Shown one piece after another: positions 6,001 through 60,000 of a stretch of DNA of 64,000 nucleotides; the stretch's first letter is position 1; every line of letters begins with the position of its first letter. The notes below the pieces were generated by a model. It was not told where the DNA came from and did no database searches. It saw nothing but the letters and a program-made list of their open reading frames with translations. The DNA is from Asterochloris sp. CNOR1. Lineage: Eukaryota; Chlorophyta; Trebouxiophyceae; Trebouxiales; Trebouxiaceae. The position numbers and the translations under genes are program-made. The DNA lies in contig OZ017750.1 of the NCBI GenBank assembly GCA_963969365.1, forward strand, positions 2,170,001 to 2,234,000, in the 5' to 3' direction.

Positions 6001-8051
6001 CCGTGGGACAGACAGGGAGCCAGCAGACAGCTGATTCATTGTCAAAGATGCACAGTCCTGCTTGAAGCCCCGGGCTGATAACGTCTGCTCCTCCATGCCT
6101 GAGCAGCACGTGCAAGGGACCTGTGACACCACTCACATCCTGGCTCAGCGAAGCCTACACATGCGCAGTCTGAACTTCATGCGTCACCCAGCGGCGCTGC
6201 TGGCAGGCCTCACCTTGACCTGCAGGAAGGGGTCAGTGATCCCCCCCACATCGTGCTCCGGCGCAAACCCGCTCATGAGCAGGCTGCGCAGGATTTTGCA
6301 CAGCATGGGCACATGCTTGCGGTAGTGGGCCACAGCGTCCGGGTGGATTTCGCAGATGTCCAGCATGAGGGTGACCCCTGCCAGCAGCACACCGTGGTGC
6401 CTGTCATTCAGCAAGCTGGCCGCCCGGTCTATGAAGCCCTCTGTCATGTCGGGCACCTTGCGCAGCACCCTGCAGGGGCAGGGGAGGCCTCGGCAAGCTG
6501 GCTGGCCTATGTGCTCTGCAAGAGTGCTTGTGATACCCTGTCTGAGGGAACACTGGTCATCTGCGGCGTGACTAGCCACTTTTGGGCTGAAGCAAAGCCC
6601 AGGCGGGGCTGCACCGGCCACTTGCCTCAAGCTGCCACCCACCGCAACGCCAACACAGGTCTCAAGCACGCAGCCTGCTTGAGGCCCCTCCTCCTGCCCA
6701 GCCGGTGGCACCCAGCGCAGCTTTCTTGTGCTAACAGCCGTTGGTGCTGGCCAGCAGCCTCCCACCGTGGGCGCCAGGAGACAGGGGCTGGTCAACGTCC
6801 GTTCTGCCTCAGGTGGCGCAGCAGGGACCCTTTCAGCTGACCCACAGAGACTGTTCAGCACTCCTCCCCAGCCCACCTGGTGGCGCACAGGGCAGCCTTC
6901 TTGCGCACATAGCTGTTGGTGCTGGACAGCAGCTTCTCCACCTCAGGGGCGAGGTCGCGCGCCATCTCAGCGCTGCAGATGTTGCCCAGCGCACACAGCG
7001 CGAGGCCCACAATGTACTGGTTGCGCGTGTTGAGATCGTTCTTCAGGGAGTTGGTGACCAGCATGAGCACCTCCTGGCGCTCATCTAGCAGGATCATCAG
7101 GCCCAGGTAGCCGATGCGCTGCAGGAGAGCCAGAGCAGAAACACTTGAATGGAACAGCCGTGTGCAGCAGCACCATGAGCGTTTTGGGGGCTGTAGGTAG
7201 GCACCGGACGCACTGCTGCTGCAGGTTATCAGGCCCCTGATACCCAAAGCACTGCAGCAACATCATTAGCCCCAAATGGCAGCAAAGCATGAGCAAATGT
7301 TTACTGCAAAAGGTCAGTGGCAGCGGCACCTCAGAGGCCGAGGCGTGGCAAGCCTGTTCTCCAGCAGCAGGGACAGGCAGCAGCAGCTCATGAGGCAGCC
7401 AAACCTGATGCGCTGCAGCAGGGGCAGTGTCAGGCTTTGAGGCTCCAGAACACCGCTGCACATGGAGTCAACGTGATTGCGCAGCACTGGCCAGTGCTCA
7501 TGAGTTGGCGATCATGCAGCTGATTTGGCCAGCATGCAGCATTCTGCATTTGTTGACCCAGCATTGCCGGCCTGGCGCAGGCTGAGATGCAGCTGCCTGG
7601 CCTCTTGCAAATTGGTGCGCGTATACACAATGCGCTGCAGCTGCGGCAGGTGAGGGGAGATGTGTACAGCTGGCGCCTCTGTGGTGCTGTATGAAAGAGG
7701 TGCATCACATGCAGTCTGTGATGCACTCCAGGGGCCACCTTTCCCATTAGGACGCCTGCAGAGGCAGCAACACAGCAATTTCATGACAGTCACCTTCTCA
7801 GGGAAGCTGGAGGCAGCAATCAGCTTGAGCGTCTCCATCTGCCCAAAGTGTGTGGGGTAGCCCAGCATGTGGATGTACATGAGCTTGGCCACATTCCTGT
7901 GCCTGTAGACAGTGTCCTGCTCCTTGAAGGCATTGCGAAGAGCTGCGCTCTCCTTAGCCACCACATTGCGCTCCTCGGCAGCAGTCTTGCACTGCCGCAC
8001 GCTCCTGATGAGCTCCCTGCATGCCAGGAAAGCTCGAAAGCTGAGCTCCAT
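1..8051 (-). CDS. AP1G: AP-1 complex subunit gamma (gamma-adaptin), 3' end outside window
   Basis: Large subunit of the AP-1 clathrin adaptor, which sorts cargo at the trans-Golgi network and endosomes. Thirteen exons can be read on the minus strand: 7794-8051, 6877-7118, 6214-6469, 5655-5869, 5019-5144, 4329-4515, 3722-3896, 3188-3419, 2109-2297, 1143-1350, 777-892, 269-487 and 1-191, about 870 residues. The N-terminal trunk shows family landmarks such as [49 protein letters not shown] and [10 protein letters not shown]. The hinge has several DLL-type motifs ([13 protein letters not shown]). The ear begins near GAFDDLLGG and continues through [10 protein letters not shown] and [15 protein letters not shown] to the window edge, where it is cut shortly before the expected stop. 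The start Met at 8051 (MELSFRAF) gives nearly the usual N-terminal length, but an upstream mini-exon is possible. The middle hinge exons are the least certain boundaries. Confidence 0.93.
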
Positions 8052-8095
8052 GTGCAGCTGCAGGGACAAGTGCAAGGGTGGCATTGTGAGCTACA

Positions 8096-31457: not shown

Positions 31458-34400
31458 ATGGCCGTCCAAGTGACCAACTTGGAGAGACGGCATCTTCCTC
31501 AAGGCAGCATGGCCCACGCGGTTGGGGCTGTGAAAAGCTGCAGCTGGAGCTGCAGCGGGAGTAGATGCTTCAAGTCTTCAAAGCGTGCCACACGCAGAGC
31601 AAGGAAAATCGTGTTCCTCCCAAATAGCCGGTTGCTGTCCAACCTTGCAGCTCAGACAGTGCAGAAGAGAGAGCAGAAGAAGAGTCTGGCGTCCAGGTAT
31701 GTGCCATGCTGCAACAGTAAAAGGCATGATGCAAACCTGATGTTCCTCCCTAGACAGTGGAGTGGAGCCTGTCTGTTGCAACTTGTGCTCGGCATGCGCA
31801 GGCACCTAGCGCCGCAGCCTCTGGAGCTGCTTGGTAATGTCTCTCATGATGAGGACTCGGCCCTGGCAGCCCCGCGCATGCAGCCCGCCCACTATGAGCT
31901 CTCTGGGTCAGACTTCAACGTCCCCACCTGGTGAGTGCCGGGCCTGCTGCTCCGGCATGTCAGCGCTGATTGAAGCAGTGGGTACAGCTTGAACTCACAA
32001 CCTCACCCTTTGTGTGTGCTGCAGCTTCCAAAAGTACTTCATCTTTGGCAAGCACATAGGTGAGCACCCGCCGCTGCAGGCTGACATCAGACCCCTGCTC
32101 AAGTGCATCCAGCCATGGTCCTCGAGACAGTGCTTCTGGCCCCGTCATGTGCTTGAGAGGCTAAGGGGGCCACTGCAGCAGCCCTGAAGCCGGCGTGTCA
32201 GCTTTGCACAGCTCATTGTGCTGCAGGCAGACCCATGCTGGGCCCCCACATTTGAACCCTGTGCTGATTGCACTCCCATGTGCAGGCAGCGGAGCCTACG
32301 GCGTAGTTAATCTGGTCATAGACAAGCAGAGTGGGCAAGAGCTGGCTGTCAAGCTGCTCCCAAAAGTGCGCGGAAAGCTCAGCAAGGTACAGCATCACCA
32401 TGGAGTCTGAATGTGGCCTTCCTACCCCAGCCTACAGATGCCTGGCAGCTGGAAGTAGCCTTACTGTCCTGGCCCGCAAGCGCCTGGCAGGGGCAGCTTG
32501 CTGCCCCGGGTCCCTCTTTGGGTCTGATTTGAAGCTGCCCCTGCGCCGCCCCAACCCCCCAAGCACCTGCGCAACGAAAGCCCTGGTGTTCTGGGGGGAG
32601 CCATCTGCACTGGGTTGCCATGGGCCCACAGCAGCCCAGAAGTCATCTCCCAGGGCAGTACCTGTATTGCAATCTCATCTCTGGCGCGGATGTGGGTATC
32701 TGGGGTCTGAGGTGCTCCAGTTTACAAGCTGTTGCTGCTGCAGGATAAGGTGCTGTGCAGGGTGCATCAGGCTTGGCCTGCGAGGAGGCACATTTGGCAG
32801 AGGCGCTGGGTCCCCCCTCACATCTCACATTCTAGAGTGTTTCAGTGTAGGAAAGCAGCAACCAGCAATGCACTCATGCACAGCAGGAAGCACTTTGCTC
32901 ACAGCCCACACGGCCACTGACTGCAGGAGAAGACGCTGCGCAAAGTGCGCAAGGAGATCGAGTTGCTGGCGCGGGTGCAGGAGTGCGGCAGCGTGGTGCA
33001 CCTGCACGGCGTGTACGAGAGCGAATGCCACATCTATATTGTCATGGAGCTCTGCTTGGGGGGTGATTTGGAGCGCATCCTGGAGGTCAGTTGGGCACAG
33101 GCTCAGGCACAGGCCTGGGAGCATGCTTGCATCCAACTCAGTAGGCCTACTTCAAGCTGCCTTGCTGGGGCGCAGCCTCCCAGGCTAGACAGCGCAGTGG
33201 CAGCCACAGGCTTGCATAGGGGGTCCTGCATGGCGGGCGGCATTGGCGGCATCAGGGCTGCTGGATCTGCTGCAAGCAGTGCCTTGAGGTCACCCAGGCA
33301 GGTTGGGAGCTCTGGTACTGGCAAAAAGCCCGCAGCTGACTGCACTTGGAAGCCCACGTCTGGCCAAGGGAGCACAGGTGGCTGGGCTGAGCCGTGCTGT
33401 GCCTCTTTGCAGGATCGTGGCCCCTTCTCTGAGCGCCAGACAGCTGCAGTGCTGTACGAGTGCCTGAAGGTCATCTCCACCTGCCACACCAATGGGATGA
33501 CGCATGGTGACGTGAAGCCAGCGGTGAGGTGGCCGCTCCACATGGAGCTAGGGCATGACCTGCAACCTTGAACTGCAACCTGTTGCCAGAGAGTTTCCAG
33601 TTGCTGCTTGTCAGCTTGCATTGCAGCAGGAGTGTCGTCCTCCTGGGAGTCATGCTGCTGCCGTCCCGAGCGTGCTGTGTTCCAGGGTCCTGACAGCCTG
33701 TGCCTGCCCTGTCATCCTGCTGCCTTCTCGATTTGGGGGTTTGCTGTGTTCTATATTCCCACTGCCTGTGTCTGCCCTGCAGAACTTCATGATGCGGCAG
33801 CGCTTCAAGGACCCTGTGGCTGCCATTGACAGCGGCGCACTGCCAGGCGCGTGGCTCAAGGCAATCGACTTCGGATGCAGCCAGAGCGTGGCAGCTGACC
33901 GCATGCTGACCAGCAGGCGGGGCACACCTGTCTACATGGCTCCAGGTGGGTGCTGTCTGCCCAAGGAACCAGGGCTTCCTGCAGTTGGAGTCCACACAGG
34001 CAGGCGACACAACTTGTGCAGAGTTGCACATGACTGCAGTCCCCGCAGGGTATACCTGCTCATGGACTTGATTCCAGTCCCTGCCATCTGCAGAGGTATT
34101 CAAGCGGGAGTATGGGCGGGAGGCAGACATGTGGAGCCTGGGCATGATGTTGTATCAACTGCTGACAGGGCGCTTCCCCTGGTGGTGAGCCCCCTGCCTG
34201 CAGCGCTCAGCGCCTGTGAGCCTTCCCTGTGAGGCTGCAGGGCTGCCACGTCCAGGGCATGCCTCCTGCACATGACTGCGCTCACAGTGAACACCCTCTG
34301 TTTACATCTGTGAGCTTCATCACATGGCTGCACCTTCAGGGGTTTGCTGCGCATGCATGACACCCCAATGATGTGGGTGCTCTTAGCCACTGAACTGAGG

Positions 34401-35528: not shown

Positions 35529-38320
35529 TTATTCGTAGTCATAGGCTGCAGGGCCTGGGCTGAAGCTGCCAGGCTCCTGCTGCTTGAGCTGCTGGCCCAT
35601 CGTGAAGCCAGGCTTGGTGTTGCAACCGCACGTCTTGCAGCCCACAACATCATGTGCGCCTGGCCCAGGGCCTGCAGCCTCACGCAAGGCTCTCTGCTCA
35701 TGTCTGAACTTCAGGGAGGCGCCCTTTTTGCTGAGGGTGCTTTCCACCTTATACTCTGCAGGAAGGTGATGGGGTTGAGTCAGGGTCAAAGTGCATGGTG
35801 CTCCTTGCAGATGTAAGGTGGTGTCTGGGGCAAGGCCCTTGCACCCCCCCCAGGCAGCTGTTTGGCACCCAGATAGCTGCACCTGTGTCATGGAGTTACG
35901 CTGCCAAAGCACCAGCGGCCTACAGCTGCACAGCCACAGGAAGTCTTGTTCCGCAAGGCACTGCAGGCTCACCATTTGGTGCTGGCTTCTTGTCGGCGTC
36001 CTTGTCCCCGTTCCACCTGAGGCCAAAGCTGTAGGCTGAGGCAGTGGGGTGTGGACCCAAAGCCTTGCTCTCAGTGCGCGCAGTGTAGTGCCCTGGCCCT
36101 GGCGTGCGCTGCCTGTGCCCCGCGCCCTCTGGCTTGCCCCGCAGCGAAATTGCAGGCTTGTGGGGCAGCAGCTTGCCAGCATCAGGGTTGTAGTCTGACG
36201 GCCCTGGGCTCTGCTGGCCTGTCGCAGACAGTTTAGAGCTCCACATCAATGCTGCTGCTGGAGGGCTACAGAGGGTGGATCATGCGCTGTATGCCAGTCT
36301 TGGCAACATGGAGCGGTGCAACTAGCCAGCAGACGTTGCTAACCAGCCAGCTGCTCACTTCCAAGTTGTGCTGCAAACCAGAGCAGCTGAAAAGACAAAT
36401 TGCTGCACAGCTGCCCATGCCCTACCAGCAGCTGCGCAGCACTGCAGTGTTGCTGAGTGCTGAAGGCGTACCCAAGTTGAGCTGATTTCCAGCTGGGCAT
36501 GCCTGTCACAGGGCTGGGTTTCCACTCCTGCTGCACAGCTACAGCTGCATGCAGCAACTCCCAGCAGAGTAAGCAAGGCTCACCCCTGCAGTTCGCTGGC
36601 CACCAGCAAGGTCGGCAAGGCAGCACTGCTTCAAAGGACCTGCACGACTGCAGGTGCTCACAGACGACTGGCAGCCAAGGCGACACACTCACTCCTGCCA
36701 ATGTCTCGACCTCCAGCAAGACTGGCAGCTGGGGCAGTCCTCAGGGTCAGTCTGCTGCTGTCCTGGTAAGCCCCTGGGCCCGGCACTGCCTCCAGGTCCC
36801 CCTTGCACATGCGACTGGCCCTGCCAAAGCTCCAACCACCACGAAACTGGTTGCCAGATGCTGACATAATGGACATGCCAGGCTGCTGAGGGGAGGTGTC
36901 TAGCGTCTGAGCCCTGCACAGGCAGCTGAAGCAGTCTGTCGTGATGCTTGCACCAAGCCTCAATGGATGCTGGGCGTGATGGCGTTGCGTTATCACTCGT
37001 CTGGACAGGCATGAGTGTCTGACTGAAGGCTGGCCACACACTCAGACTGCAAGCCAAAAGGGTGGCCAGCAAGCGCTGCAGATTGGTGCGCGTGCTGCAG
37101 GAGCCTTGCCTGCCTCGCAGCACATATGCGCGGCTGTCATGGAGCCAGGGGCAAGGCCTCAACGCATCATAGGGGGCACATGCTGCTGGCCTGCCTGTCC
37201 AGGCTTGCGGCAGCTCTCAGAGCCTTGTCTCACCTGCCACAGGCAGCTGCCAGGGCGGCCACGAGCACTGCAAGCAGAGGCAGCCGCAGTGCAGTCAGTG
37301 TTGACCCTCCAGCGGGACTCACTTGCGGCTGACTCCAAAGGTGAAAGCAGGCGGCTGCGGCCGATCGGCGCCTATGGCTGCATACTCCCCCGGCCCGGGT
37401 GACGTCGCCTCCCGCAGGGCCCTCTTCTCATGCCTAAACTTGAGCGTGGCTCCCACGCTGCTCAGCGTGCTGTCCATGAAGTAGGCTGCAGCAGGTGCAG
37501 CACACCACCTCAGCAGCCTCTCAGACCAAGCATCTGGGAGTGTCGGGCATCTGAACGCTCAACTGCAGACCCCCAGGGATGCCACGGCGGGAACTATTGC
37601 TCAGGCAGGCACTTCTGTGCTGTTTCCACACCTGGCTGCTGGCTGTGCATGCCTGCCGCCATTCCACACCTCTCAGTTGGTGGGCCCTCACCATTGGGGC
37701 CCGGCCTCCTGTCTGCCTCCTTGTCCCCCTTCCATCTGAGGCCAAAGGTGTAGGCTGAGGAGGTGGGGTGTGGACCCAGCTCCTTGCTCTCAGTGCGTGC
37801 AGTGTAGTGTCCTGGCCCTGGCGTGCGCTGCCTGTGCCCTGGGCCCTCCGGCTTACCCCGCAGCGAAAAAGCAGGCTTGTGGGGCAGCAGCTTGCCAGCG
37901 TCAGGGTTGTAGTCTGACGGCCCTGGGCTCTGCTGACCTGCAGTGTCCAGGGTGAGCCCACTCTTCATATTGCCAAACCATGGCAGTTGTCGACAAAGCC
38001 TGGGTGGCAGCTTTGACAGACATTGTTTTCCCAGTGGCTCACCTACATGGATGTCCCTGCCTCCTCCAATGGTGTAGCTGGGCTGATGAATGGAGTTTGA
38101 ACTGACCAGGTATTGCTTTTCTGACTGGTAAGCCCCTGGTCCTGGCCCACTCTCGCCTGCGGACGAGGCCTGTGGTGAGATGTCTGCCATGTGGGCAGGT
38201 CCAATGTGAATCGGACTTACTGCTAAAGAGATTGGTGTGTCTCTGCCCAAAGCTATAAGCTGGTGGAGTCCTGAGCACAGCATTCTTGCCCCTCTTCCTG
38301 CCAGGAGTATGAAGCAGCAT
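35529..38320 (-). CDS. SHIPPO / sperm-tail PG-rich (STPGR) repeat protein with duplicated exon block
   Basis: Seven exons (38221-38320, 38043-38156, 37692-37937, 37323-37485, 36693-36913, 35973-36218, 35529-35755) join in frame into 438 residues. The protein is built of Pro-Gly repeats: SGPGPGAYQ, SPGPSDYNP, TPGPGHYTA, SPGPGEYAA, VPGPGAYQ, again SPGPSDYNP and TPGPGHYTA, then GPGPGAHDV and SPGPAAYDY. Such STPGR proteins (ODF3/CIMAP relatives) are mostly associated with cilia and microtubule inner proteins, so an axonemal or microtubule role is likely but inferred. Exons 3 and 6 are both 246 nt and encode nearly the same 83 residues (about 11 differences). Exons 4 and 7 are also paralogous (LSSVGATLKFRHEKRALREA against LSKKGASLKFRHEQRALREA). 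The ATG at 38320 opens with MLLHTPGRKRG. Confidence 0.88.
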
Positions 38321-38745
38321 GATGGCGGTCCCGATACAGGTTCTACCTCATTCCTGAGCTGTTCTCTACTGCTGGTCTGGCAGCATGGCAAGATTGGGGA
38401 TGCAGCACAAAAGCTGCACAAAAGTGCCCCAATGACCTAGGATAGCCAGAGTTGTCAGACACCTCAGCTGGCTACCACTAGTGCCCCCGTGCCTCACTGG
38501 CTGCGTGCTCTTCGACTGGCAGGTACTCTCATCGAGCCCCTATGTCGGCTCTTCATGTCCTGCAGCCATTTTGACCGGCAGCTCAGAGAACACTGCCGGT
38601 CCAGCTCCAGGCCACTCACACTTCGTGCGAGGGCTTGCTTGAGCAAGAAGGGGCTAGACTGTCAAGGATTCAAAGAAGCTTTCCAAAGCAGCTCAAGGTG
38701 CCACATTGAGCAGGCAAAAGAGCACCAAGCCAATCAAGGGACAAC
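38321..38745. promoter_or_regulatory. Head-to-head intergenic region between SHIPPO and CstF-77 genes
   Basis: 425 bp separate the two start codons. No recognisable motif or gene is seen. The CstF-77 start exon is only 42 nt, so the exact boundary rests on that small exon being right. Confidence 0.35.
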
Positions 38746-41700
38746 ATGGCGCATGGGGCCTACAGGCAGCCAACGCTGACCGAGCAGGTGCAGACTCAAT
38801 CTACACAAAGTCTCCACGCTCGAGTTGGACATGCACATGCTGCTGCAACAGATAGGCAAAGGGCATGGGGGCTAGCTGAGAAGCCCTTCTGTGTCTGCCA
38901 AGGCTGCGCGAGGCTGAGCATCCCCGCTCAGCCGAAAGTGCACCATGCAGAGCTGGAGACCGAATGTGCACCAGCAAGTCAGCAGCTTACCCTGGCAATG
39001 GACCCATGCTTTGCACTGCATCCAGAGGATCCAACCAGCATCCTCATCATTGCATGCTCCTGCAGAGCCAACACAGGCCTCCATGTTCCTGCCGAGCTCC
39101 CACACGGCTCGTTCTTGTGGCTTCTGCTGGACTGGTGGGAGAGGCCGCAGCCAAGGCTGGGGCCAAAATAGCCGTAAGGCTGGGGCCAACAAAGTGCATG
39201 TTGGGGGTTTGTCGTGGTGGCTGTGAGCAACATCAAGCCCAAACGCATGTGGCTGCTGCCTGTGCAGGCAGTGCCCCTGCGCAGTCGCGTGCGCGCAGAC
39301 AAGTGGGATGTGCAGGCCTGGGAGGGCTTGGGCGAGCTTCTGCTCGCTTTTGCAGACAGGCCAGACACCCTGGGCGAGCAGCGAGACTTGTATGAGGAGC
39401 TGTTGGCCCAGTTCCCTACAGCTGTGAGCCATCTGTTGTTGCCAGTATTCGCCCCCACCACAGGAGGCTGGACCTGCTGTTCACATGCTGACCAACATAC
39501 AGGCTGGGGTTGCGTGTGGCCGAAACCCCTGTGGGCTCTCTGATGGGCCAAAAGCATGAAGGCCTGGCCTTGCTTCAGCTGAGGCTACAGCAGAAGACCT
39601 GGGAGCCCCACATAGCAGCAATGACTGGATACTTTGAGTCACACGTTCATGCTCAGCCTGCATGCTTGGCTGGAACATTCGCCTGTCTTCACACCGCGTT
39701 GACACCATGCCGGTTGCTTGGCGCTTGGGTGAGGTGGCAGGAATCACCTCCAGCTTGCCGCTTAGGCTGCCAGGACCCTTTGTCGGTGGCGCATGAGACA
39801 CCAGCTGTGTTCCATGCCAAAGGGCTTGTTTTGGAAGGTCCTAGGCAGGTGGCGGCCCTCCCAGGTCTCAGAGCCATGGGAATTGTGCGCGCCCAGCCCT
39901 GCACCCCCAGGAATCCTGCTGCCATTCTCCCTCTGCCTGCCTGCCGCAGGGCCTGTTCTGGAAGATGTATGCTGAGGTCAGCATGAAGGCCAAGTCCCCA
40001 GATGTCAAGAACATCTTCAGCCGCAGCCTGCTGTCCTGCCCCTACCTGGACCTGTGGAAGGCGTACCTCACCTTCATCAAAGACGTGAGTGCCTCATGCC
40101 GTCAAGCCCTCCAGCTAGCCCTATGCCCTCACCTTGACCCTTGCCAATATGTATGCACACCTCTGTGACCTGGGCGCCCTCCAGCATGCTCTGTGCGTTT
40201 TAGCCGCCATGCATACCTCTGTGACCTGCGGGCAGTCTGGTGGCAGGTCCCACCACCTGGCCGCTGTGCACACACAGTCATTGCTGGGCTGCCTCCTGCA
40301 AGCTCTATGCAATCCCAGCACCTCACGGTGCACACAGATGCCTCTGGGCTCAAGACAGTTCTTGTGAGGACCACTTGCTGTAAGTTCCAGGGTGTAGCAC
40401 TTCGATCTTCCCAGCCGCAGCGTCCCTACAAGGCGGCAGACGGCCACAACAGCTGCTAGTGTCCCTGCTGGCGAGACCTGCTGGGCTGCTGCAGAGCAAC
40501 AAGGGGCGTGGCAATGAGGGCATGGCCGAAATGAGGCAGGCCTACGAGTTCACGCTGGACCACATCGGCCAGGACTTCCGTGCAGGGGACCTGTGGCGCG
40601 AGTACATCGCCTTTGTGGCTGGCCCTGGCCCTGGAACGCCTGCCTACCAGGCGCTGTGGGGGGATGCTGCACGCCCAGGGCAGGAGTCTAGCGAGCGCCT
40701 GCGTGTCCTCAGGTGGGGTGCCTGCCTGGTTGTCTGCTGGGTCAGGGGGTGCAGGTGGGAAGCCAGCCTGCGCACGGGCGTGCTTTGGCAGAAAGGAGCA
40801 GTTGGTGTTTGGCGTCTGCGCAAGAAGCATCAGCTTGATCTGCCTGGGGCCTGCCTCCAATGCGGTGAGCATCCTCACTGGAGTTGAGGCCTCAGTCGGG
40901 CTGCATTGTACATTGCCTTCTGCTGCCAGCCAGCGCCACTGCTCATGCTTAACCGCACTGGGCACCCCACACTTCCCCTGCAGGCTGGCTGCCAGCGATC
41001 TGTGGCCTATCCCCAGATGGGACCCCAATGTTGCACCCAGCGCAGCATACTCAGCCCTACCCTTGACCCACCCCCTGCTGCCGCTGCGATTAGTCTGCCA
41101 GGGTGCCCTGGGCAGTCAAGCCCTGGAGCCTGCCTGGCTGGCGGCTCAACAGCATCCCTGCTGCTGCTGCAGGTCGGCATACCAGCGCGCGCTGGCCGTG
41201 CCTAGCCGGGAGCTGGACGCTCTGTGGCGCCAGTACGAGCAGCTGGAGCTGCAGAACAGCTCCAAGGTGTTTGCTCGGCGTGTGCTGGACGAGCAGCGCC
41301 CACGCTACCAGGCTTCGAAGGCTGCGCAGCCGGCGAGGCAGCGCCTGCTGGGAGCGCTGGAGCTGGACGTGTTTGCACTGCCGCCAGGTGGGGTCTGACA
41401 ATCTGCGGCTGCTTTGCCGTGCTGCTGGTGAGGCAGAACCTGCTCTGGAGCCTGAGCTGGTCTCTGGGCTGCAGCCTCCTCAGCCACAGTTGCAGATGGG
41501 GGGTGCTGCAGCTCACATCATGATGCAATCAATGCATCTCCTGCACACTTGGCAGCAAGGGCATCCGGCTGGCACCCCTGTTCTGTGCCTCCTTGGCTGC
41601 AGCCTCCCCATCCCCGCTGACGGAGCCCCTGCAGGTGTGCTGCAAAATGTGATGCCATCCACTCGTGCTGCAGGCCAGGGTGGCTTTGCCCAGCAGCAGA

Positions 41701-44700
41701 TGCATGAGGCGTGGCAGGCCTACCTGGACTTTGAGATGAGGAACCCCCAGCGGTTGGAGGCTGCCGCCCTGGCTGCACGTGTGCTGCATGCCTATGAGCA
41801 GGCGCTCATGGTGCTGCTGCACTACCCAGAGGTGAGGCAGCCTGCAGCCGAGCAGGTGGTGCTGAAGCTGTACAGCAGTGGCTGTGCTTGAGGTGCCTAC
41901 CAGTAGGTGCTCATGACGCTGCTGCACCACACAGAGGGGCCAAGCTAGGCAGCCAGGCAGGAGGATGCTTAAGCCATACCGCACTGGCTGCGTCTGCACT
42001 TCACTTTTGGGGTGCCCTTGCCACCTGCAGCCAGCTGTCATGGCTGCCTATGTGCTGTCTGCCTGTGATGCTGATTCATGCTGCGGCCTTCCTTTGAACT
42101 TGACAAAACGCCCTGCCTAGCTCTGGCCACGTCTACATAACTGGCAATGTCACGATTGGCATCTGTTTTTGTGTTGATTGTGAGCCGATTCAGATTCTTC
42201 GCCCAGTCCCAGTCCCTGCCTTCCCATGCAGGCCTGGCTGGAGTATGCTGGCTGGCACCAGCAGCAGGACCCTCCAGACGCCAACTCTGCACGGCAGGTG
42301 CTGGTGAAGGGGCGAGAAGTGAGACCCACACTGCCAGCTGCAATGGCTGCCTTGCTTGGTTTCCTCTGTGATGCCCTCTGTACACTTCTGCAGCTTTCTG
42401 TTCGAGCCCCAACTCAATGCCTTTGGGGACCCATGTCCATCCTGCATCAGTGCTTCCGCCCACCTGGCCACCTGCAAGGTGAGGCAAGGTGGAGCCCGTG
42501 GCCCCCTGCCTGCTACTGCTAAGCCATCAGCATCTGGGTCCCCCTCCTGCCACTGGCTGGACAGCCGTCAACCCCTGCCTCTGTCCCCATGCTCTGCAGC
42601 GCCTGCCCTCCTGCCTGCTGCTCCACTGCGCGGCCGCTGACCTGGAGGAGCAGCAGGGCAGGCTGCCCGCAGCGCGAGCGGTGTATGAGGACCTGGTTCG
42701 TGGGCGCACCCCCGTCCCGGCTGAGCCCGAGGCGGGTGAGATACCGGAGGAGCGGGCCCCACTGCAGCTGCCCGCGGAGCTGGGCACGCTGGCCTGGCTG
42801 CAGTTCATGGCGCTGGTGCGCCGCACAGACTCGGTCAAGGCGGCGCGGCAGGTCTTCCTGAGGGCACTCAAGGACCCTGCGCATGGATGGCAGGTGGGTG
42901 GAGCCGTTCCAGGGCGACAGTGTGGGAGGCTGCCTGTCTGGTGGCTGCTGCAGGCACTGAAGGGCCGTGCACAAAGACGGCACATGGGTGGTGCTTTCAA
43001 AGTATAACATTGGCGACTGCCTGGCTGGTGCCTGCAACAAGGGCAGGAGGTTTTGTGAAGGTTGTGGCAAGTTGCGGTTGCCAGCTTGCCTCGCGACAGG
43101 TCTTCCTGCCATCCAACGAGGTCCTGCCCAGGTGTTTGGCTCTAGTGCAGGGTGATGGCGGGGCGTTGCCTGGCACACGAGGTGATGTCATGGTGGCACG
43201 TGAGAGATGCCAGCACTGATTCTGGTGGAGAGCACATGCGTCGCATTGAAAAGGGGTCTTGCTGTACATGATTGTAGTATCTGGCAGCGTAGCCCTCACT
43301 CTAACAGCTTTGTCTCAGGGTTGGTGCGCTTTTGCGCCCCACTCCTGTCAAGCTGACTCCGCCATGGTGGCAACTGTAAGGGGTGGCAGTCTCCACCAAA
43401 GTTGTCAAGCCAGCATTGCCGCAACCAGAACCCTGAGCTTGGCATGCTCACACCTCTCCCAGTGCCATGCCACAGGTGTACGCAGCTGCTGCCCTCATGG
43501 AGTGGCGCAATGACCGCAGCAATGAGGCCCCTCCCAAAAAGATCTTTGAGCTGGGCGCCAAGAAGTTCCTGGGCGTCCCCGACTTCGTGCTGTCCTACAT
43601 CGACTTCCAGCTGGGTCTGGGAGACATCGCAAATGCCCGCGCCACCTTTGAGCGCGCGCTGACTGTCACGCCAGGGGATCAGCAGGGCCCCCTGTGGGAC
43701 AGATATGTACAGCTGGAGTACCATGTGAGTTGACTGCTGGTGTCAAGACCGCTCTGGGCCCTGGGTCATGTACTTGTGAGTGCTCTGTTCAGGCCGCTGC
43801 TGCCCCTTGGTGAATGGACTGAGCAGCATGCCTGACCTCTCAAGCCTGTGGGACAGAGATGGCCAGCTGGAATACCATATGAGTTGAGTTGCCTGCTAGT
43901 GTCAAACTGTGCTCTGGGCTCTGGTTCAGCCTGCTTGTGCCAGGTCAGTCCAGGCCCATGATGACGGATGCCCACTGTTGTGGCCATCTTGTGAAGAGCA
44001 CAGGAGCATTCCATGTGTGTCCAACAGCAAACAAACTCTGTGTGCCTCCCGCGCAGCGCTCAGGTGCGCTCAACAGCCTCCTGCACCTGGCAGCTGCTGG
44101 GCAGCAGGGCTCCCAGCAGGTACACACGGGCTTGCCAAGTCTGCGCTCCTGCCACACATGCATGAGAAGCGCCTGCCCTGACACCCGCCCTCGCCCCCTG
44201 CAGAACGGCGCTCCCGGAGCGCTGCAGAGCGTGGAGCGGCGGCGCGGGGAGGCCCTTGCAGGGCAGCAGCCCTCGATGGCGGGCATGCTGCGCCTGCAGC
44301 TACTTAAGCACTCTGCGCTGGGGCTGTGGCCCTGCGCGGACCAGGACCAGGAGCACCTCAAGCGGGTGCTGGGGGATCTGCCAGCGCTGCCTGCCCCAGC
44401 AGTGGTGCCTGCTGCAGACGGCGCTGTGGCACTTGCAGGCGAGACACCAACTCCCTGCACTGAGTGGCTGGGAGTCAGCTGACACTGTGAAGGCACCTGT
44501 TGCAGATGGTGCAGCAGTTTGGCTCTGAGTCGCCCAGCAGTGCACCAGGACGCAGCCGCATCAAAGCTGCTGTTGTTAGCTGTGTCATGGGCTGCACCCT
44601 CACTGTGAGCGCTGCCTGAGCTTGCAGGGAAGCATGCATTGCTGAATTGTTGTCTGCCTGACTGCAGGGCCTGTGCAGGTCAATGGGTTCCACGGGGGGC

Positions 44701-47201: not shown

Positions 47202-50200
47202 TCACGAGTTGTGTCGTGTGCTTCTGATGTCCCTGCTGTGCAGATTTTGTTGCAGCACACTGTCTACAAGCAGCAAACCTGCTCTCGGCTGGTCTCTGGG
47301 GACCTGCAAGGCAGACAGACAGACAGACAGGTTAGGCAAAGCAATTGGAAACCGGTGGATGAAAGCTGCCAAGACCTGTGTTGTTCCTGGTGGTAGGGCA
47401 TAGGATCCCCTTATGTTGGCCCTCAGCCAGTTGTCTCAGCCAGTGGACTCACCATGTGGCCCGCATTCAGCAGCACAAACTGGTGAAGGTTTGTGTGCTG
47501 CTTCCTGAAGCCCATCAGCTCCCCATCTTGGTGCAACAGAGGCTGACTAGGGGCCTTCTCAAAGTCAGCCCTTCCCTCCCAGTCCAGAGTCTGGATCCAA
47601 TCCTCTGTCCCAATGTGACAACAGATCAGGTCCAGCTGACCAGAGTAGATATAAACCGGCACACCTGCAGCATCACCACAACTGCAATGGCCAGCCTTGA
47701 CGGAGAGCTCAGTCTGGCAACTGGGTTCAGCACCCTGAACTTCAGCAACCTGACGACTGGGCAACTCACCTCGATCAAGGACATCATCCACTACTCCAAC
47801 CACATCCAGCATGAAGTCTTCTGTGAGGTTGCTGAAAACGGCTCCAGATTGGGCACCCCATATCACATCATCAGGGATGATGCCCACCAGTTCCCGCACC
47901 TGTAGAGGCGACCAGCTTGGTTATGGGCACAGCAGTGCAGACTGGCCAAGGGAAATGACCATCATCCCAACTAAATCTACATCTCACACACACTGACACG
48001 GGAAGCCAGGGCAGACAGAGAGCAAACGCAAACCAACCAGTTGCTTGCCTCATGGTTCATGAAGTGCCCCAGCTTCTCAGGATGGTAGCGATGGAGGAGC
48101 TTCTGTGCTGCCAGCGGCAAGGGCTCTGCAGCAAGCCGTGTAAAGCATGGCGTGTGAGGGAGCCCAGCAGACTACCGTGCTGGATTGCCCAGGCAGAATG
48201 TAGCAGAATGTAGCCCAGCTGACTACCGTGCTGGATCATGCGGCTGCACTCTTGACTGACTGAGCACTGACATGTAGTATGCAGAGGATAGAGAGCGCAG
48301 AGAACAGAGAGAGCACTCTAGGTGGTTGAATTGCTGACTCATGCACCTGACACTGGGCTCAGCTCAGTCTCAGTACCACCACAACTGCCAAGTGACTTTA
48401 CAGTAAATGCTCACCGTGGGGGTCCAGGGTGGCCAGCCAGTCTTGGAGGGCAGCGGAGTTGCCAGGCACTGTACCCGGCTCATGCACCAGCACATTGTAA
48501 AAGGACACACTGTCAGTCAGGTTCTCGGCCTCAAATTCCGTGGCAGACCACAGCATCGTGGCCCCTGTGAAGTTGCCATCCTCCATCGCTTGCTGCACAG
48601 CAGAGTTAGCAGGTCAACTAGTTGACGAGGTGGCATTCATGCCAATTGGCTGCATTTTACATGCTGCTCCAAAGCAGGGATCCTCATGTCATGGCTGGGA
48701 CCATTGATGTGATATCACATGAAGGGGTGCCACAGGGGCCCAGCAGCCGCCCCCTCTCCCCCCCAAACAGCGCCACAAGGGGTGCCTTGCAGTCAAGTTT
48801 GGCTCCAGCAGGGGCTTTCAAGAGACTGGAAGGTGCTGATGCCGGCACACATGGGCTCCTTCACGGGTGCAAGGAGCCAAAGCAAACTTTGCTGCTGGTC
48901 TGCCTTTTCACAGCTCTGGGAGCCATCCTTTGCTGGCATCACCCCCATTCGCAAAAGCACACAAACGCTTGTGCAAGCAGAAGCCACACTTATCACCTTG
49001 GTGTCTGCAGCAAACGTGGCCAGGTGCTCCTCTGCAGCGTCGTCCAGCAGGGACAGGGCGTGCAGGTAGCCAGGCCACGCCTGCACATAGCTGATGGGCG
49101 ATATCCAGGAGTCACCCAGCGCAATGCCCCTGCAGGCAAAGGCCACAGGCGAATCTGCATGGCTTCCCTACAGCAGCGCCAGGCAGCACTCCACCCGTGC
49201 TTTGATGCTGCATCCACATCAGGTACTGCCCCAAGCTGCAAGGTGCTGCGATGAGGATGTGACTTTGCAACAGCATGCAATTAGCGCGACCTGCCTGCAT
49301 GCTGCTGGGTACATCAGCACACAGTGCTGTCAGCAAGGTGCACCTTTGCATGGAGCCTTAGTTTACCTGAAATTCACTTCCAGCTTCCCAGCTTTGTTGG
49401 CTGCATCAATGTCGCGGGCCCACTGGATGGCCATCTTGCCACCGTATGACTCACTGAAGATGTGCATGGGCGCCTTCTTGAACTCCGGGTGGCCAAACAG
49501 CCACTCGTTTATGAACACCATCAGATCTGATGCAATTTCGTTATTGCTCTGAGCTGCAGGACAACAAGTGACACTCTCTTACATGTCGTCTGGGCTGCAG
49601 CTGCCGGTGGGGCAACGATTTGTGTGTTGCTTCTGCCTGGAGGCAGGCAGGGTCAAAAGGCACTTGCTGGAGTCAACTCTGGTAAGGCAGACAGTGGCAC
49701 TGGGGCCTAGCAGCTGCATCAAGAGGATTTAGCATTTCTGGTCACTGCACTGACTGGTAGGCAGGGCAGCTCAATGCGGGGCTGCCGGGACTCACAAAAG
49801 TTGGCATGGGGCTCCACATAGCTGAAGCCTGTACCCACTGGGTTGTCGATGAACAGCAGATTGGCCCTGGAAGCCCAATTGTGCTTGCGCTCTCTAAAGC
49901 CAATCGTGTAAGGTCCAATTTCCTGCAGAGCGTAAGAGCAGAAGTCAGCAGGAGGCTTGTGAACAGGCTGGGCCACTGCAGACAGGCAAAGCATGGCATG
50001 AGAGCTGAAGCGCGGACCTCAAATGCTCCATAACCTGTGCCACTGGCTCCAGGACCTCCCTGCAGCCAAATTATGAGTGGCTCCTCATCCACAGCTTCAT
50101 GGTGACATTCTCTGCAGGGCTCAAACCACCTGCAGCATTGTGTATGGGCTTGCCAGCATGGACAATGCATGCATGCAAGGCATGGAGCAGGAGCCCTGAC

Positions 50201-50559: not shown

Positions 50560-53500
50560 ATGTTCGCAAAAGCATCAGCAGTAGTCTGCAGCAGTCAGCA
50601 CTCTTCAGGGCTTGAACAGGTCGCTTTGAGCGGTGCTGCCCATAGGTCTGCACATCCCAGGCAAAGTCCCTATCTGGACTCACTGCAGCCAGTCTACAGA
50701 GCATCACCATATACAGCAGAGGTCCTGCGGGCCCGACAGGCTGCCACAACAGCTCAGATTCTATTTGTGGAGGACGCTGGGCAGTGCAGGTCAGCTTTAC
50801 AACACAGTTCTGCCCGCAAGATCGGGGAGTTCGAAGGACTGCCATCCTGGCTCAGACTTGGTTTATGCTGCAGCATCAAGGACTTGCTGCATCTTTGCAG
50901 CATCTCAACTTCTGCTGGCCTGCTGCTGCAGGGCCGTTCTGGCAGCCTCCCTCTTTGATGCCCTGGCCAGCCTGGCAGGGCTTCAGGGGCTGGTCAGATC
51001 TGACTTTGCCTCAATCGGGCCACCAGTAGCAGAAGGGTGGCATGACCCTCGAGTGCAGTGGGTGCTGCTTGAGCTGTCAGAAGACCTCAAGATGCTCCAC
51101 TTGCGATCATATGCAGACTGCCTGCTATGTCCAGCCAGCCACCATAAGCTGCCAGGCCTTGCCTGATGCTGCGTGCTGCCAACATGCCTGAATCATTCTG
51201 CAGGTCAGCAGCAGATATTGCTGGCTTGCAGCTCAAGCCCCAGCACCTGCGCTGCTTTGATGAGCATGTCGACATCGTCCACTGCGATCTGGTGTTGGTT
51301 ATGGACAGGCCAGACTTGACAGATGTGAGTGCCATGCAATATTCCCCCATGTGGCGCCCTCACTACTTGAGCAAGCACTGCTAGTTGGTTCCATCTACAC
51401 TTGCAAAGGCAGGGCATCGGGTGTGGTGTCCTCCACCTGCAGGTCCTGCGCGAGGTCTCTGTGTTTGACGCAATCAACCCTGAGGGCGGATACAGCAACC
51501 GTGTGCGTATGCTGGGCGCCTTCCAGCGCTACCCAGGCGACCCCACTGCCCCTGCAGCCGTCCCCAAAGCAAAAGATGCCGCAGCATGGGCCCTGCCATT
51601 GCACGCCCAGCACAATGCCTCCAGATCAGCCGCGGCCTGGCGCAGCTTCAATGCTGCAGCAGCCGGAGCTGCCTCGGCCATTGCAGCTCCCGGGGGCTGG
51701 CAGGACGAGATTGCTGACCCCTTGTACTTCAATCGCTGGGACATGAGGTGCGCAGGCCCATTGCCAAATGCCCACAGCCAGCTGCTTTTAAAGTGCATTG
51801 CACCTTGAGATCTTGGGACGCGAGGTGGGCATCCTCCCCCTTGTGAGATGCTGGCATGTCTGTGCTCATGTTGACGTGCTCATGTTGATGCTTGAGGTTC
51901 TTCTGTGAGCTTGTGCAACCTCCCCTGGACGTCACACAATGGCTGTGCTGCATGTCTGCATGAGAGTCCCTGCCTATCGAAAAGGTTGCTGGGCTGATTG
52001 CTACAGTGAAGAGCAGGTCGATGGGCTGTGCCCTGCAGGGAAATGGAGGCACTGGCAGGAACCATTGAGGACTTGCGCACTGCCTGCCGTGGCCTGATTC
52101 GCTACCTGCAGCAATTGCGCGACAGGTGATCTGGTTGATGCCTCCTGCAGCCTGACACCCCCACTGCGGCAGCTGGTGCTGTTGGCATGCATGCGGGGCA
52201 GTGCATCTCGCACCTGAGCTGGTGGGGGCTGCTTGAGCTTCGTGACAGCTTGAGCCCAGCTTTCAGGCCTGGGTGATTGACAGCACTGTGGCAGTTGAGG
52301 CACTAACTGGCTTTGCCCACCCTCAGCATGCTGCCACAGCATGATGCATAAGCAGCAGCTGTGGGGCTTCTGTCTGCCCTGTCCTGTGCCGTCCTGCAGC
52401 TGTGCAGGTAGCTCTAGGGGCCCCGTCAAAGGCAGTGACCCTGACAAATAGCTGCCACCAGTAGAGTAGCCTGTACCCGCCCTGAGGCGCTGGCCTCAAC
52501 AGGCAGCTGCCACTTCCCACATGTAGTTGACACTGTCTCCTTGAGCGCCTGATGCCTGCTGCAGGTGTGCTGGCAGCTCCCTGGGGCTGCCAGAGGCATT
52601 GGCGTTGTCTCTACGCAGCCCCATGCCCAGCCTGGACTTCAGCAGCAAGCAGGCCTCCAAGTTGATCACTGCCCCTGCCCAGGGTGGCAAGCGAGCCCCC
52701 CTTTGGAAGGAGGCAGGAAACCTGTTCACGGTCCGCTACGACAAGAGTGGGCGGCGCTGCATCGTCAAGAAGCGCAGCGTGCCCTGGTAGGTGCACAGCC
52801 TGAGCACGCTGCATTGCAAAGGGGTGCAGGTGGTACAGCATCTGCCGCTGCATTGCCCAGAATCGCCACCCGCTGCGCTGGTTGCATAGCCTGAAGTTGC
52901 TGCATTGCAAGGGGTGCAGCGTGCACAGCATGGGTGCTGCACTGTCAAGAACCGCTTAGGTGCAGCTCCTTGCCCGGCGCTGGCTGATGCAGTGGCTTTC
53001 TGAGGTCATCTCACTGAGCCGCCCCTGCTCATTGGCGGCTGACTGCAGTCCACATCACAAGTGTTTGAGGTTCCTGTGTCTGCTATCAGCAGACTGACCG
53101 AGCCCCTGCTCCTGCAGGGCCTACTGGAGGAGCCTGGACAATGTGGACCGCGAGCTTCAGAGGTGGATGGCAGAGCACCCCCAGATGCACCAGCCAGGGC
53201 TGTTCCCTTCCCAGGGGGCCCTGCGCAAGTCAGGGGCTGCTGCCCTGGCTGTGGCGATCATGCAGCACGGCGGCACGGCTGCAGTGGCGTCTGAATTAGA
53301 GTGAGCCGTGCCCCTGCCTCATCCATGCTGAACATGCAGCTCGGCAGCACAACTGCATTGGAGGCCTGCTGTCACCTGTGCCATCGCGCAGCACAGCGGC
53401 ACTGCAGCACCGGCCGCCCAGCTCAAGCGAGCTTGGCCTGTTGCTGCTCGTGGCCAGCGAGGTCGCCCACCTGCAACGGCTGAGGTGGGCCTGCCTGGCG

Positions 53501-54316
53501 ACCAAGCAGCAGGGCCACACGGCGTGGTCAACTGTCCCAGGTGTTTGGCATGCAGTGCAAGGGCTCAGATGAGTGGCCACCGCACCTGAGCTCTTGCACT
53601 GCATGCCATACAGCCCGTCCAGCTGTGAACCCCCACCCCTCCACCCCAGCAGTTCATGTAATTCCCTTGCTCGACCTGCAAGCCCAGGGACAAGAGCAGT
53701 GCAACAATTCTTGCAGCCTCACATGCTGGGCCTCTGCTGCAGTTTGGGCAAGCCTGCCAAGCGACCTCGTGGCTGGTGGCGTCGGCCCGGCAACCTGGAG
53801 ACTGAACTTCAAAAGTATGTTCAGCCTCAGTCTGCCAAGCCCAGCCAGGCAGACACAGCAGCAGTTGCTGGAGCTGCAGGGGGTCTCAGGCACAGCGCCT
53901 CTGCACCTGCTGCCAGGAGGTCTGGTGCGCCGAGCTCCAGTGCCTCAGCAGCAGCTCAGGGGCCTGAGGGGGATGGAAGAGGCGCAATGCCCACTCGCAA
54001 GCAGCTCCTGGATGCCAAGCGGGCAGACATTGTCAAGGCGGTCATGGAGAGCGGCGGCTTTCCTGCGGTTGCGGCGGAGCTGGGCCTGACTTACAAAGCC
54101 AGGTGAGGCACCCACTAAAGATGCATGATTGGTGTAGTAAGCGTTCTGACTGATGGCAAGGCTGTTCAGCAGGCCCTCTGTGGAGTTGTCAAGCTCAGCT
54201 GCTCTTGCACAGGTCTCAGGTATTGCGGCTGGTGTGTCCAACAGTGCTGCGTGCATGTCAACCCTGGACACTTCTGTTCCTGCAGGTCTCGGAGGACCAA
54301 GGACTGCATCATTTGA
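50560..54316 (+). CDS. LMW-phosphatase-like pseudoenzyme fused to W..N..EL / GG..AVA.EL repeats
   Basis: Nine exons (50560-50789, 50932-51075, 51204-51324, 51443-51747, 52039-52125, 52565-52786, 53118-53300, 53743-54102, 54286-54316) join in frame into 560 residues. The N-terminus (MFAKASAVVCSSQHSSG) could be a plastid transit peptide. Residues about 66-200 have the low-molecular-weight tyrosine phosphatase fold: ILFVEDAGQCR where active enzymes have a C-x5-R loop, EGWHDPRVQ, DLVLVMDRPDL and GYSNRVRMLGAF. The nucleophile position is Glu71 (Arg77 is kept), and no D-P-[FY] acid loop is visible, so catalysis is unlikely. A linker and a segment FTVRYDKSGRRCIVKKR follow. Then come two repeats: YWRSLDNVDRELQRWM with LAVAIMQHGGTAAVASELD, and GWWRRPGNLETELQKYV with IVKAVMESGGFPAVAAELGL, separated by a Ser/Ala/Pro-rich linker. 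Similar W-N-EL plus HGG-VA-LG modules occur in plant and algal proteins as far as I recall. Function unknown; a binding or scaffold role is inferred. Confidence 0.82.
52756..52960. repeat. Tandem copies of exon 6 end and intron start in the phosphatase-like gene
   Basis: A unit of about 90 bp starts inside exon 6 (GCTGCATCGTCAAGAAGCGC, 52756) and runs over the 5' splice site. It recurs at 52847 (GCTGCATTGCCCAGAATCGC) and again, partially, at 52936 (GCTGCACTGTCAAGAACCGC). GCTGCATTGCAAAGGGGTGCAG is shared downstream with one base missing in copy 2. The donor GTAGGT of the real site is replaced by GTTGCA in copy 2. Confidence 0.85.
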
Positions 54317-57038: not shown

Positions 57039-60000
57039 TCAGGCAGACAGGTTGCCAACAAATCCCACCATGCATCGAACTTTCTGCATCAAGCCATCTA
57101 GCTGCCCCCAGGTGCCCTTGAGGACCTGGAGGAGCTGCTTGCACTTGGCGTGCAGGTGCTGATCTTGCATGAGCGTGCTGCCATGCACCTGCAGCAAAAC
57201 ACGAAGGAGCGCCTGCACAAACTCAAAATTTCTGTTGGCATCAGTCTCGTGAATAATCAAATTCAGAAGAGTCCCAATGTCTGCCAGCTCCTCCTCTGAG
57301 GTCTCGGGTTCCAGAACCTGCAGGCACAGCATGAAGCTGGTGAGGGGGGTTTTGCATGAACATGCCTCAGAAATTGTGTAGTGCGCAGATGGCATTGGCT
57401 ACTTATGCAATGTTTGTGAAGCACACTTGGCTTCACCTGCAGAGCCCTGAGCTCCTGATCAATGGCAGCTGGCACCATAGCCCGCAGCCTGGCCATTAGT
57501 GTGCTGTAGTCTGTGCCCTCCCTAGAGCGCCTCAGGACGCACACAAAGGAGTCCTGTGCATCACCTGCACAGCAAGACAGACGCAGATCTCTTCATGCCC
57601 TGAGAGCAGTCGCAGCTACAACATTCAAGTCAACAGGCCAGCAGTTATGCTTACAGACTGCGCAAGCAGATCATGCAGCACACAACCTGCAACTGGGATT
57701 GCAAGCCAGCCTGCGCACAGCGGGCCTCACCAAGGCCCTGCTTGACACGGCTTTGGGGGACATCTTCAAGCCCTGCCGAAGCATCCTGCTCCCAGGCCGC
57801 GTGCTGGTCGGTGTCAAAGAGGGGGTCCCGATTGAGGCCAGCCACCGTGGGCAGGAAGAAGGGCGCAGCAGCTGGCTTCTTGGCTGGCTGGATTGGCTTG
57901 TTGCGTTCCTGCAGGGTAGAGCTCAGGTGTTACTGGGCTAGCGCTTCTCCAAACCACACCTGACTCAGCTTTTGAGAGGAGAAGGAAGACAGGTTGAGCA
58001 GGGCGCAAGTCACAGCATGTGTCCAGAGCCAAGCCAGACCGTCAACTGCAAGCGCTGCGCAGCACCACTCAGTCCGACGATACTGCAACTTGCGTGCAGC
58101 ATGACGCCCGGCCAGCACGCAGCCAGGCCTCCAGAGTCCACATCAGTGCACAAGCAGCCAGCACCGACCTTGATGGCGTCCAGGTGCACCAGGCTCTGCC
58201 ACTGCGTTCGGGGCAGCATGGACAGCGTCAACAGGTGGGGCTCCAGGGGCTGAGGTGCCCCTGCAGCAAGACTGAGTATTTGCTTTTCATTCTGGCACTC
58301 GGCTGAGTTGGCAGGAGAGCAGACATAATGCACAGTTGTTTGCTTGAGCATATGGGAGTCTTAAAACATGTCATTGGTGTCACACAGACGCTGACCTGCA
58401 GCATCCCGCCCCTCATACCGGCGCCGTTTGCCCTGCTCGCCAGGCTGAGCACCCACTCCGTTTTCAGCTCCCTCCAGGGCTGCTGGCGAGCGCTTCTGGC
58501 CAGCATGGGTCCCTTCATTGCGACCTGGGTGGCTGGTGCCGCTCTTTGCAGCTGCTATGCAGTTAATGCCAATGGCTGGAGCTGCAGGCTCCTCTGCAGC
58601 ACCTCCATCTTCTGCAGGCAACCAGCTTGTGTTGCAGCCAGCATCTGGGTTCAGACTGGCAGGTGGATCAGCAGTGTGCAGGTGCATTGGCTCTGCGACC
58701 CTGAGCTGCTGCTCATCATACAATATATGCGACGGTGGCTACAGAGCAGTGCAGATGCAGCTTGTCTGTACACATGAGCTGGTGGGGCAGCAGCTCTTGC
58801 AGCGCTCAGCCCAGCCCTTTCTGCATCTGGGCTGCCGCTATCTCACCTTCACGAGCGCTGATGGTTGGCAGCTGCGCCCTAACCACCGTGTCTGAGTGTA
58901 CCACGTCATCCCCGCCCCCAAAGGCCTGGCGGTTGCTCCAGAGGTAGATGCCACGCAGGTCAGCGTGGGTCGTGGCCAGCATCTCCATGCCAGGACTTAG
59001 GCTCAGCGACGTCACCGGTTCCCCCAGGTGCACCACCTGGCAGCAGCCAGGCCATCAGGCAGTTGGCAAGCCGCAGAGCCAGGCGATGGGCAGGTGGTGT
59101 GCTCTGCTGCAAAGTGCAGGAGGTGCTGAGGCATGCAGCAGCTCTGTCCGCATGTACTGGGCAGTCAACACAAGGACTTGGGCTGTTGACTTAGGGGCAC
59201 ATGAAATTTTGGTGCGTGCGCAGACACAGTCTTGCAGGGAAGGGCTCCACCTGCAGAGTATGGAGCCAGATTCTCCTGCTGTGCACAGCCTCCCCTTGTG
59301 CAGTTCCCACAAAGAACGAGAGAACGTGATCTGCTGCAGATTGCAACGGGTGGTAAGCTGCGCAGCAGCTCCGTGCAGATGAGCCTGGTGGTGAGCGACT
59401 GCCAAGGCAAGATGGTGCAGCCACAGTTGCACGCTCTCTCCAGGCCTTGCCCACACAGGCGCAGCCTGGTCGATTGCATGCGTGCTCAAGCATAAGGGAT
59501 GCATACAGGCACAGGCATGAGGGAAGCGCCGAAGGCACCTGCAGGGTGCGTGACTCAGGCACGTCCCACACGCGGACGTGCCCATCAGCCATCGCCACCA
59601 TAAGCCAGCGCGAGTCTGAGCTAAGCTGCAGGTCTGTGATGGCTGCCCGGTGCCCCTGAAAGCGGCGCACCAGGCGCGTCGCTTCCATGTCATACCTGCA
59701 GGTGCATGCACCCACACATGCAGCGCACAAGCAGATGCACAGCCATGAGCGCAGGACAGCCTGGCACTGGTGAAGCTCAGCACCTCTCACAAGCGCATCA
59801 CCAGTCAAAGCTGCCAGGGCCCAGTAGAACGCTGAGCTCTACAACAGCCCGGTGCTCTCGTCAGCTCAGGCTGCTAGCAAGCCGCTGAAGAATGCGTGGC
59901 TGCCTTGCACCTTCAATTGACGACACAAGAAGCTCCACTCACATGCGCACAGACAGGTCCTGGCAGGCCACGGCCACCAGGGCTGTGGCCGGCTGGTGCG

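Follow-up and report, generated by a model that had tools for sequence, protein, structure and literature searches.

A candidate plastid RNA-binding protein of Asterochloris sp. CNOR1 that appears to join a degenerate LMW tyrosine phosphatase-like domain to TMR-type repeats

HCF145 (At5g08720) is a stabiliser of the psaA-psaB-rps14 transcript (PMC11449065). It is described as comprising a pair of SRPBCC domains and a pair of TMR domains of approximately 70 residues, the TMR domains binding to the psaA 5' UTR, and it has been proposed that the SRPBCC domains offer a platform on which metabolic control can act (PMC5897788). Stabilisers of single chloroplast mRNAs may couple photosynthetic genes to cellular state. 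Retention of a dead phosphatase in a genome is a feature of MK-STYX, as it would be of the gene described here. MK-STYX is an animal relative of the MAPK-phosphatases (dual-specificity) and belongs to another phosphatase class than the LMW tyrosine phosphatases (LMW-PTPs). Among the titles and abstract openings retrieved by searches of the open-licence literature, several of them from protist phosphatome surveys, no pseudo-LMW-PTP of plants or algae was found.

In this work we analysed a window of 64,000 nucleotides from the green alga Asterochloris sp. CNOR1 (contig OZ017750.1, positions 2,170,001 to 2,234,000), in which an earlier note had described a maintained pseudophosphatase of the LMW-PTP fold. 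The intron-rich genes and chloroplast-type repeat proteins of this genome are in keeping with a green alga. The evidence tilts slightly towards the gene encoding a plastid TMR-type RNA-binding protein, whose N-terminal accessory domain would be a catalytically dead LMW-PTP fold. To judge from its sequence, the combination of a pseudo-LMW-PTP with TMR-type repeats is real and unusual.

The window gene, rebuilt from the sequence, extends over nine exons from 50560 to 54316 on the + strand and encodes a protein of 576 residues with no in-frame stop (positions are those of the window):

Exon 1, 50560..50789, + strand: Ala/Ser-rich N-terminus with few acidic residues, then the degenerate P-loop ILFVEDAGQCR; the Glu71 codon lies at 50770-50772, and the Arg77 codon, starting at 50788, is divided by intron 1.
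Exon 2, 50932..51128, + strand: AVLAASLFDALASLAGLQGLVRSDFASIG..., following the P-loop as in LMW-PTPs; its 3' boundary (TAT/GTCCAG) is weak and the donor uncertain.
Exon 3, 51209..51324, + strand: DEHVDIVHCDLVLVMDRPDLTD, the counterpart of the LMW-PTP DLILAMD strand; 5' boundary uncertain.
Exon 4, 51443..51747, + strand: the INPEGGYSNRVRMLGAF region, followed by roughly 50 residues of Ala-rich insert and by the general-acid motif Asp273-Pro-Leu-Tyr (Asp codon 51716-51718).
Exon 5, 52039..52125, + strand: the LMW-PTP C-terminal helix EMEALAGTIEDLRTACRGLIRYLQQLRD; 0 of 5000 shuffles match the score of the C-terminal piece.
Exon 6, 52565..52786, + strand: linker and a stretch running into repeat 1.
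Exon 7, 53118..53300, + strand: TMR-like repeat 1 (AYWRSLDNVDRELQRW ... LFPSQGALRKSGAAALAVAIMQHGGTAAVASEL), matched by the profile from other loci at residues 414-448 (19.0 bits).
Exon 8, 53743..54102, + strand: TMR-like repeat 2, made up of GWWRRPGNLETELQKY and AMPTRKQLLDAKRADIVKAVMESGGFPAVAAELGL with a linker of some 50 residues between them, matched by the same profile at residues 528-563 (32.5 bits).
Exon 9, 54286..54316, + strand: the final residues SRRTKDCII and the stop codon.

The exon boundaries were picked to hold the frame open, which for that reason carries no independent weight. Introns 1 and 3-8 start at a GT donor and end at a CTGCAG acceptor. The exon 2/3 junction is weak on its acceptor side as well (GGTCAG/CAG), so that the model may be off by a few residues there. 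The frame had previously been described as open, which holds in the rebuilt model, and as 560 codons long and ending at 51747, neither of which does; the gene continues to about 54316. GC content by codon position is 0.656/0.533/0.653 over the coding sequence and 0.589 in the introns; the lowest value at second positions over the whole coding sequence is as expected for coding DNA, although the pattern is uneven across exons, the second position being lowest in five of the nine. Ala and Ser account for 10 each of the first 60 residues of the protein, Arg for 5 and acidic residues for 3, a composition that suggests a transit peptide-like N-terminus and, on this ground, import into the plastid. 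Upstream of the gene, on the minus strand at 49363-50018, lie serine carboxypeptidase exons (Peptidase_S10, E = 8.5e-11 and 4.4e-10).

A repeat unit, composed of a W...N...E-[LM] part followed by a P[ST]xxxL...GGxxxVAxxL part, occurs in two copies in exons 7 and 8. A protein search of the alga's own genome with these repeats returned three rows for the window itself and one each on contigs C8 (E = 0.0107), C17 (E = 0.0968) and C12 (E = 0.494). On inspection the C8 and C17 loci carry the repeat unit, and none was seen in the frames inspected at the C12 locus. The single-sequence match to the HCF145-like C8 locus, at E = 0.0107, is thus weak. A profile was built from six copies, cut by eye, of the C8 and C17 loci, which had themselves been found via the window's own repeats. 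It gave two matches in the whole window protein (53.7 bits; 56.3 bits with the C-terminal part alone), and the best of 2000 shuffles of the C-terminal part reached 14.3 bits. Both matches span only model positions 16-51 of 54, that is, the second half of the unit. The window repeats are homologous to those of two other loci of the same genome. The profile finds two copies, and the approximately 70 residues of a TMR unit are matched by repeat 2 only when its linker is subtracted. Pfam assigned the window repeats to no family; repeat 2 is touched by HTH_1 (E = 0.17) and by YdaS_toxin (E = 0.28), both far under their cut-offs. The best hit in a PDB search had an E-value of 1.5, which is chance, and none of six stretches from viral contigs was confirmed as a relative.

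The name of the repeat and the domain layout of HCF145 are taken from PMC5897788 and PMC11449065. The C8 locus (L096, C8:2541000-2550900, about 1880-7300) encodes Polyketide_cyc/SRPBCC pieces, one above the Pfam cut-off (E = 2.6e-5) and two further fragments below it (E = 0.0011 and 0.0013), followed by two TMR-like repeats. We call the window repeats TMR-type because this layout is that of HCF145 and because the repeats are homologous within the genome, HCF145 itself being compared by its published layout; the assignment is thus an indirect one. As far as that published layout goes, the window protein resembles HCF145 in being nuclear-encoded and in carrying, behind an accessory domain of pocket-forming fold, two TMR-type repeats at its C-terminal end, and it differs in that the two SRPBCC domains of HCF145 are replaced by a degenerate LMW-PTP; its repeat 2 is also divided by the linker of about 50 residues. 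Pfam found no SRPBCC domain in the window protein, where an HCF145 orthologue would be expected to have two; the Polyketide_cyc matches lie at a different locus, L096.

At the C17 locus (L097, C17:1818000-1827900, about 4516-8070) several TMR-like repeats follow a peptide with a weak match to the RimM PRC-barrel (E = 0.0076, below cut-off), and this gene possibly encodes a plastid rRNA-maturation factor joined to such repeats. Near it, at about 1000-1990 of L097, an open frame contains many GGHLAVLQWARQ-GC-W repeats, ankyrin-like by eye.

The LMW-PTP-like region of the window protein spans residues 65 to 322 approximately. Exon 1 reads ILFVEDAGQCR, and residue 71, at the position of the Cys of Cys-x5-Arg, is Glu, encoded by GAG, whereas Arg77 is retained; in this the earlier reading of the loop was right. 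GAG differs from either Cys codon at all three bases, and one wrongly called base would therefore not account for Glu71. The loop E-D-A-G-Q-C-R-A of the window protein stands against C-W-G-N-I-C-R-S in the canonical gene of the same genome: Gly14, Asn15 and Ser19 are replaced too, and Ala follows Arg77, so that the Cys-x5-Arg-[ST] P-loop of an active LMW-PTP is absent. A different exon 1/2 junction restoring the Cys had been named beforehand as the finding that would overturn the loss. We therefore enumerated the in-frame solutions around this junction, allowing GT/GC-AG introns of at least 35 bases; C-x5-R was restored in none of the 167 one-intron alternatives, and the narrower pattern [ILVF][ILVF]-x-C-x5-R-[ST] in none of the 10,731 two-intron alternatives, and, as far as the sequence by itself can tell, rescue of the loop by another splice form was rejected. 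The replacement of Cys by Glu together with that of the loop Gly, Asn and Ser argues for a catalytically dead domain. That it is also "maintained", as had been proposed, rests on the open spliced frame of a model chosen for its frame.

The general-acid motif tells a different story from the one first given. The D-P-aromatic motif had been reported as lost on the strength of the INPEGGYSNRVRMLGAF stretch, yet ADPLYF is present within exon 4 and within the span given in the earlier note, after the Ala-rich insert: the INPEGGYSNRVRMLGAF stretch comes first there, the insert next and DEIADPLYFNRWD last. The INPEGGYSNRVRMLGAF stretch aligns ahead of the motif, and the same segment precedes it in LMW-PTPs; the C-terminal helix of exon 5 comes after it. 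With the insert cut out, phmmer aligned eiadplyf with evqdpyy in 2cwd (E = 0.004) and with evpdpyy in 5o7b (E = 0.4). When the uncut domain was aligned by MAFFT to 81 LMW-PTPs, Asp273 fell on the general-acid Asp in all seven reference rows inspected. In the alignment of the references without the window protein this column is D, and the following one P, in 81 of 81. A lost Asp was thus rejected on Pfam, phmmer and MAFFT evidence. Of the motif Asp273-Pro-Leu-Tyr, the first aromatic position is occupied by Leu and the second (Tyr276) is kept.

For the window protein an RNA-binding role in the chloroplast is likelier than an enzymatic one, because the essential Cys is lost and two repeats of a type found on a chloroplast mRNA-binding protein are attached. 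Under this preferred reading the nuclear-encoded protein would be imported into the chloroplast, where its two TMR-type repeats would bind and protect a plastid transcript, as HCF145 does on psaA. The LMW-PTP-like domain would dephosphorylate nothing and would act as a scaffold or as a ligand- or redox-responsive module in place of the SRPBCC domains of HCF145. Such a pseudo-LMW-PTP on TMR-type repeats would be a second platform beside the SRPBCC one, and a testable one. A more specific version, in which the dead domain is a stromal sensor of a phospho-compound, or of redox state via Cys76, that gates binding of the repeats to a plastid mRNA, is fairly unlikely.

The retention of both Arg77 and Asp273 implies that part of the pocket survives, and the main function could accordingly be that of a pseudophosphatase binding a phosphorylated protein or metabolite through these two residues, the repeats being incidental. 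We consider this distinctly improbable. Glu71 and Asp72 open the anion-binding loop, from which Gly14, Asn15 and Ser19 have gone, and this would weaken phosphate binding; the phosphate-binding role that the earlier note had entertained is therefore less likely than estimated there, even with Arg77 and Asp273 in place. Speculatively, Glu71 may fill the pocket and pair with Arg77. The repeats are also unlikely to be incidental, since they are homologous to the repeats of other proteins of the same genome.

Cys76 lies beside Arg77, where LMW-PTPs have the second Cys of their P-loop, and together with the remaining Arg and Asp273 it could have become the redox or nucleophilic residue of a neofunctionalised enzyme or redox switch. 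This has little probability: Cys76 does not stand in the Cys-x5-Arg spacing, the neighbouring loop residues have changed, and the second P-loop Cys of the family is not known to act as the nucleophile.

Whether the domain is an LMW-PTP at all depends on remote similarities, the insert being removed by eye and its boundaries varying by a few residues between the Pfam, phmmer, shuffle and plasmid tests. The LMWPc family of Pfam (PF01451, cut-off 23.2 bits) matched the insert-cut protein at 25.4 bits (E = 1.8e-5) and the uncut protein at 12.9 bits (E = 0.13), so that the comparison with PF01451 proposed at the outset passes the cut-off only with the insert removed. Matches of the insert-cut domain to solved bacterial LMW-PTPs were weak in phmmer (2cwd, E = 0.004; 4etm, 0.041; 5o7b, 0.4; 4kk4, 0.77), and a PDB search with the whole protein found 4etm at E = 0.12. 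An LMW-PTP profile was then used, made from 81 sequences, namely the canonical one of the same genome and 80 bacterial ones, the best 80 of 293 relatives obtained with search patterns that included FVCWGNIC. The bacterial sequences were extracted by the motif C.GN.CR[SA]; invariance of both Cys, Gly, Asn and Arg in this set is by construction, since the motif demands them, whereas the Ser column is S in 81 of 81 although S or A was allowed, and the Asp column lies outside the motif.

Against this profile the domain alone scored 6.6 bits uncut and 12.9 bits cut, in both cases more than all of 2000 shuffles (best 5.7), and the full 576-residue protein scored 3.6 bits, below the best shuffle. Taken piecewise, the real score was equalled or exceeded by 0 of 5000 shuffles for the C-terminal piece (3625 of them reported by the program, the remainder counted as lower), 4 of 5000 for the P-loop piece and 6 of 5000 for the middle piece. 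A superficial likeness, or mis-modelled exons 1-3 and hence no LMW-PTP, would account for the uncut domain falling under the Pfam cut-off, for the full protein being beaten by shuffles and for the weak splice sites at the exon 2/3 junction; it is nevertheless a poor candidate, since three separate pieces, standing in family order, beat nearly all shuffles, the domain alone beats all of them and the cut domain passes the Pfam cut-off. We regard a diverged LMW-PTP in the window protein as well supported by its sequence and remote. Its remoteness follows from the fact that both a six-frame PF01451 search of the genome (56.4 Mb, 21 contigs; the window lies on C5) and an NCBIfam scan of the protein missed it. 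A gene in decay, with Glu71 as one sign of a pseudogene in the making, would fit the lost Cys and the second-position GC minimum in only five of nine exons, but has a low probability given nine exons free of in-frame stops (in a model picked for this), the GC minimum at second positions over the whole coding sequence and the intact repeats and general-acid motif.

As expected, no relative of the LMW-PTP-like domain was confirmed among 4 stretches from viral contigs and 63 from prokaryote genomes, and a tblastn search of plasmids with the cut domain gave two records with E-values of 5 and 7, taken as chance; these collections hold viral, prokaryote and plasmid DNA, and the results are thus uninformative on algal orthologues. 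A protein search of the alga's own genome gave five rows for the window itself and a further one on C2, which at E = 0.68 was regarded as a chance match.

With known LMW-PTPs (PF01451, and 2cwd, 4etm and 5o7b as weak matches) the window domain shares the order of elements, i.e. the ILFV strand, the P-loop position, the DLVLVMD strand, the D-P-x-Y motif and the C-terminal helix. It differs from them by the Glu in place of the nucleophilic Cys, the replaced loop Gly, Asn and Ser, some 50 inserted residues ahead of D-P, a longer gap from the first to the middle element and the fused repeats. The genome has a separate canonical LMW-PTP on C3, detected by the PF01451 search, with Cys and Asp intact. 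This gene (L003, C3:2679000-2688000, about 3141-4400) has Cys-x5-Arg and D-P-Y-F. It belongs to the same family as the window domain, by the PF01451 search and the Pfam scan respectively, but has an apparent intron inside the P-loop after Cys-Trp, whereas intron 1 of the window gene divides the Arg77 codon, and no repeats were noticed in the part inspected. A recent duplication of the canonical gene was rejected on this search and on the protein search of the genome: the PF01451 search found only two exons of the canonical locus on C3, and that it missed the window gene indicates how diverged the latter is.

Elsewhere in the window, Pfam matches were found to Adaptin_N (5513-6154 and 6184-6942, minus strand, one above and one below the cut-off), a CCCH zinc finger (15873-16520, minus strand), a protein kinase (32921-33571, plus strand), Suf (41094-41891, plus strand) and WD40 (59191-59838, minus strand), the last with its best E-value on WDR36/Utp21, under the cut-off of that model. 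A SHIPPO (sperm-tail PG-rich) repeat match at 37594-38436 on the minus strand would deserve attention should the organism be regarded as lacking flagella.
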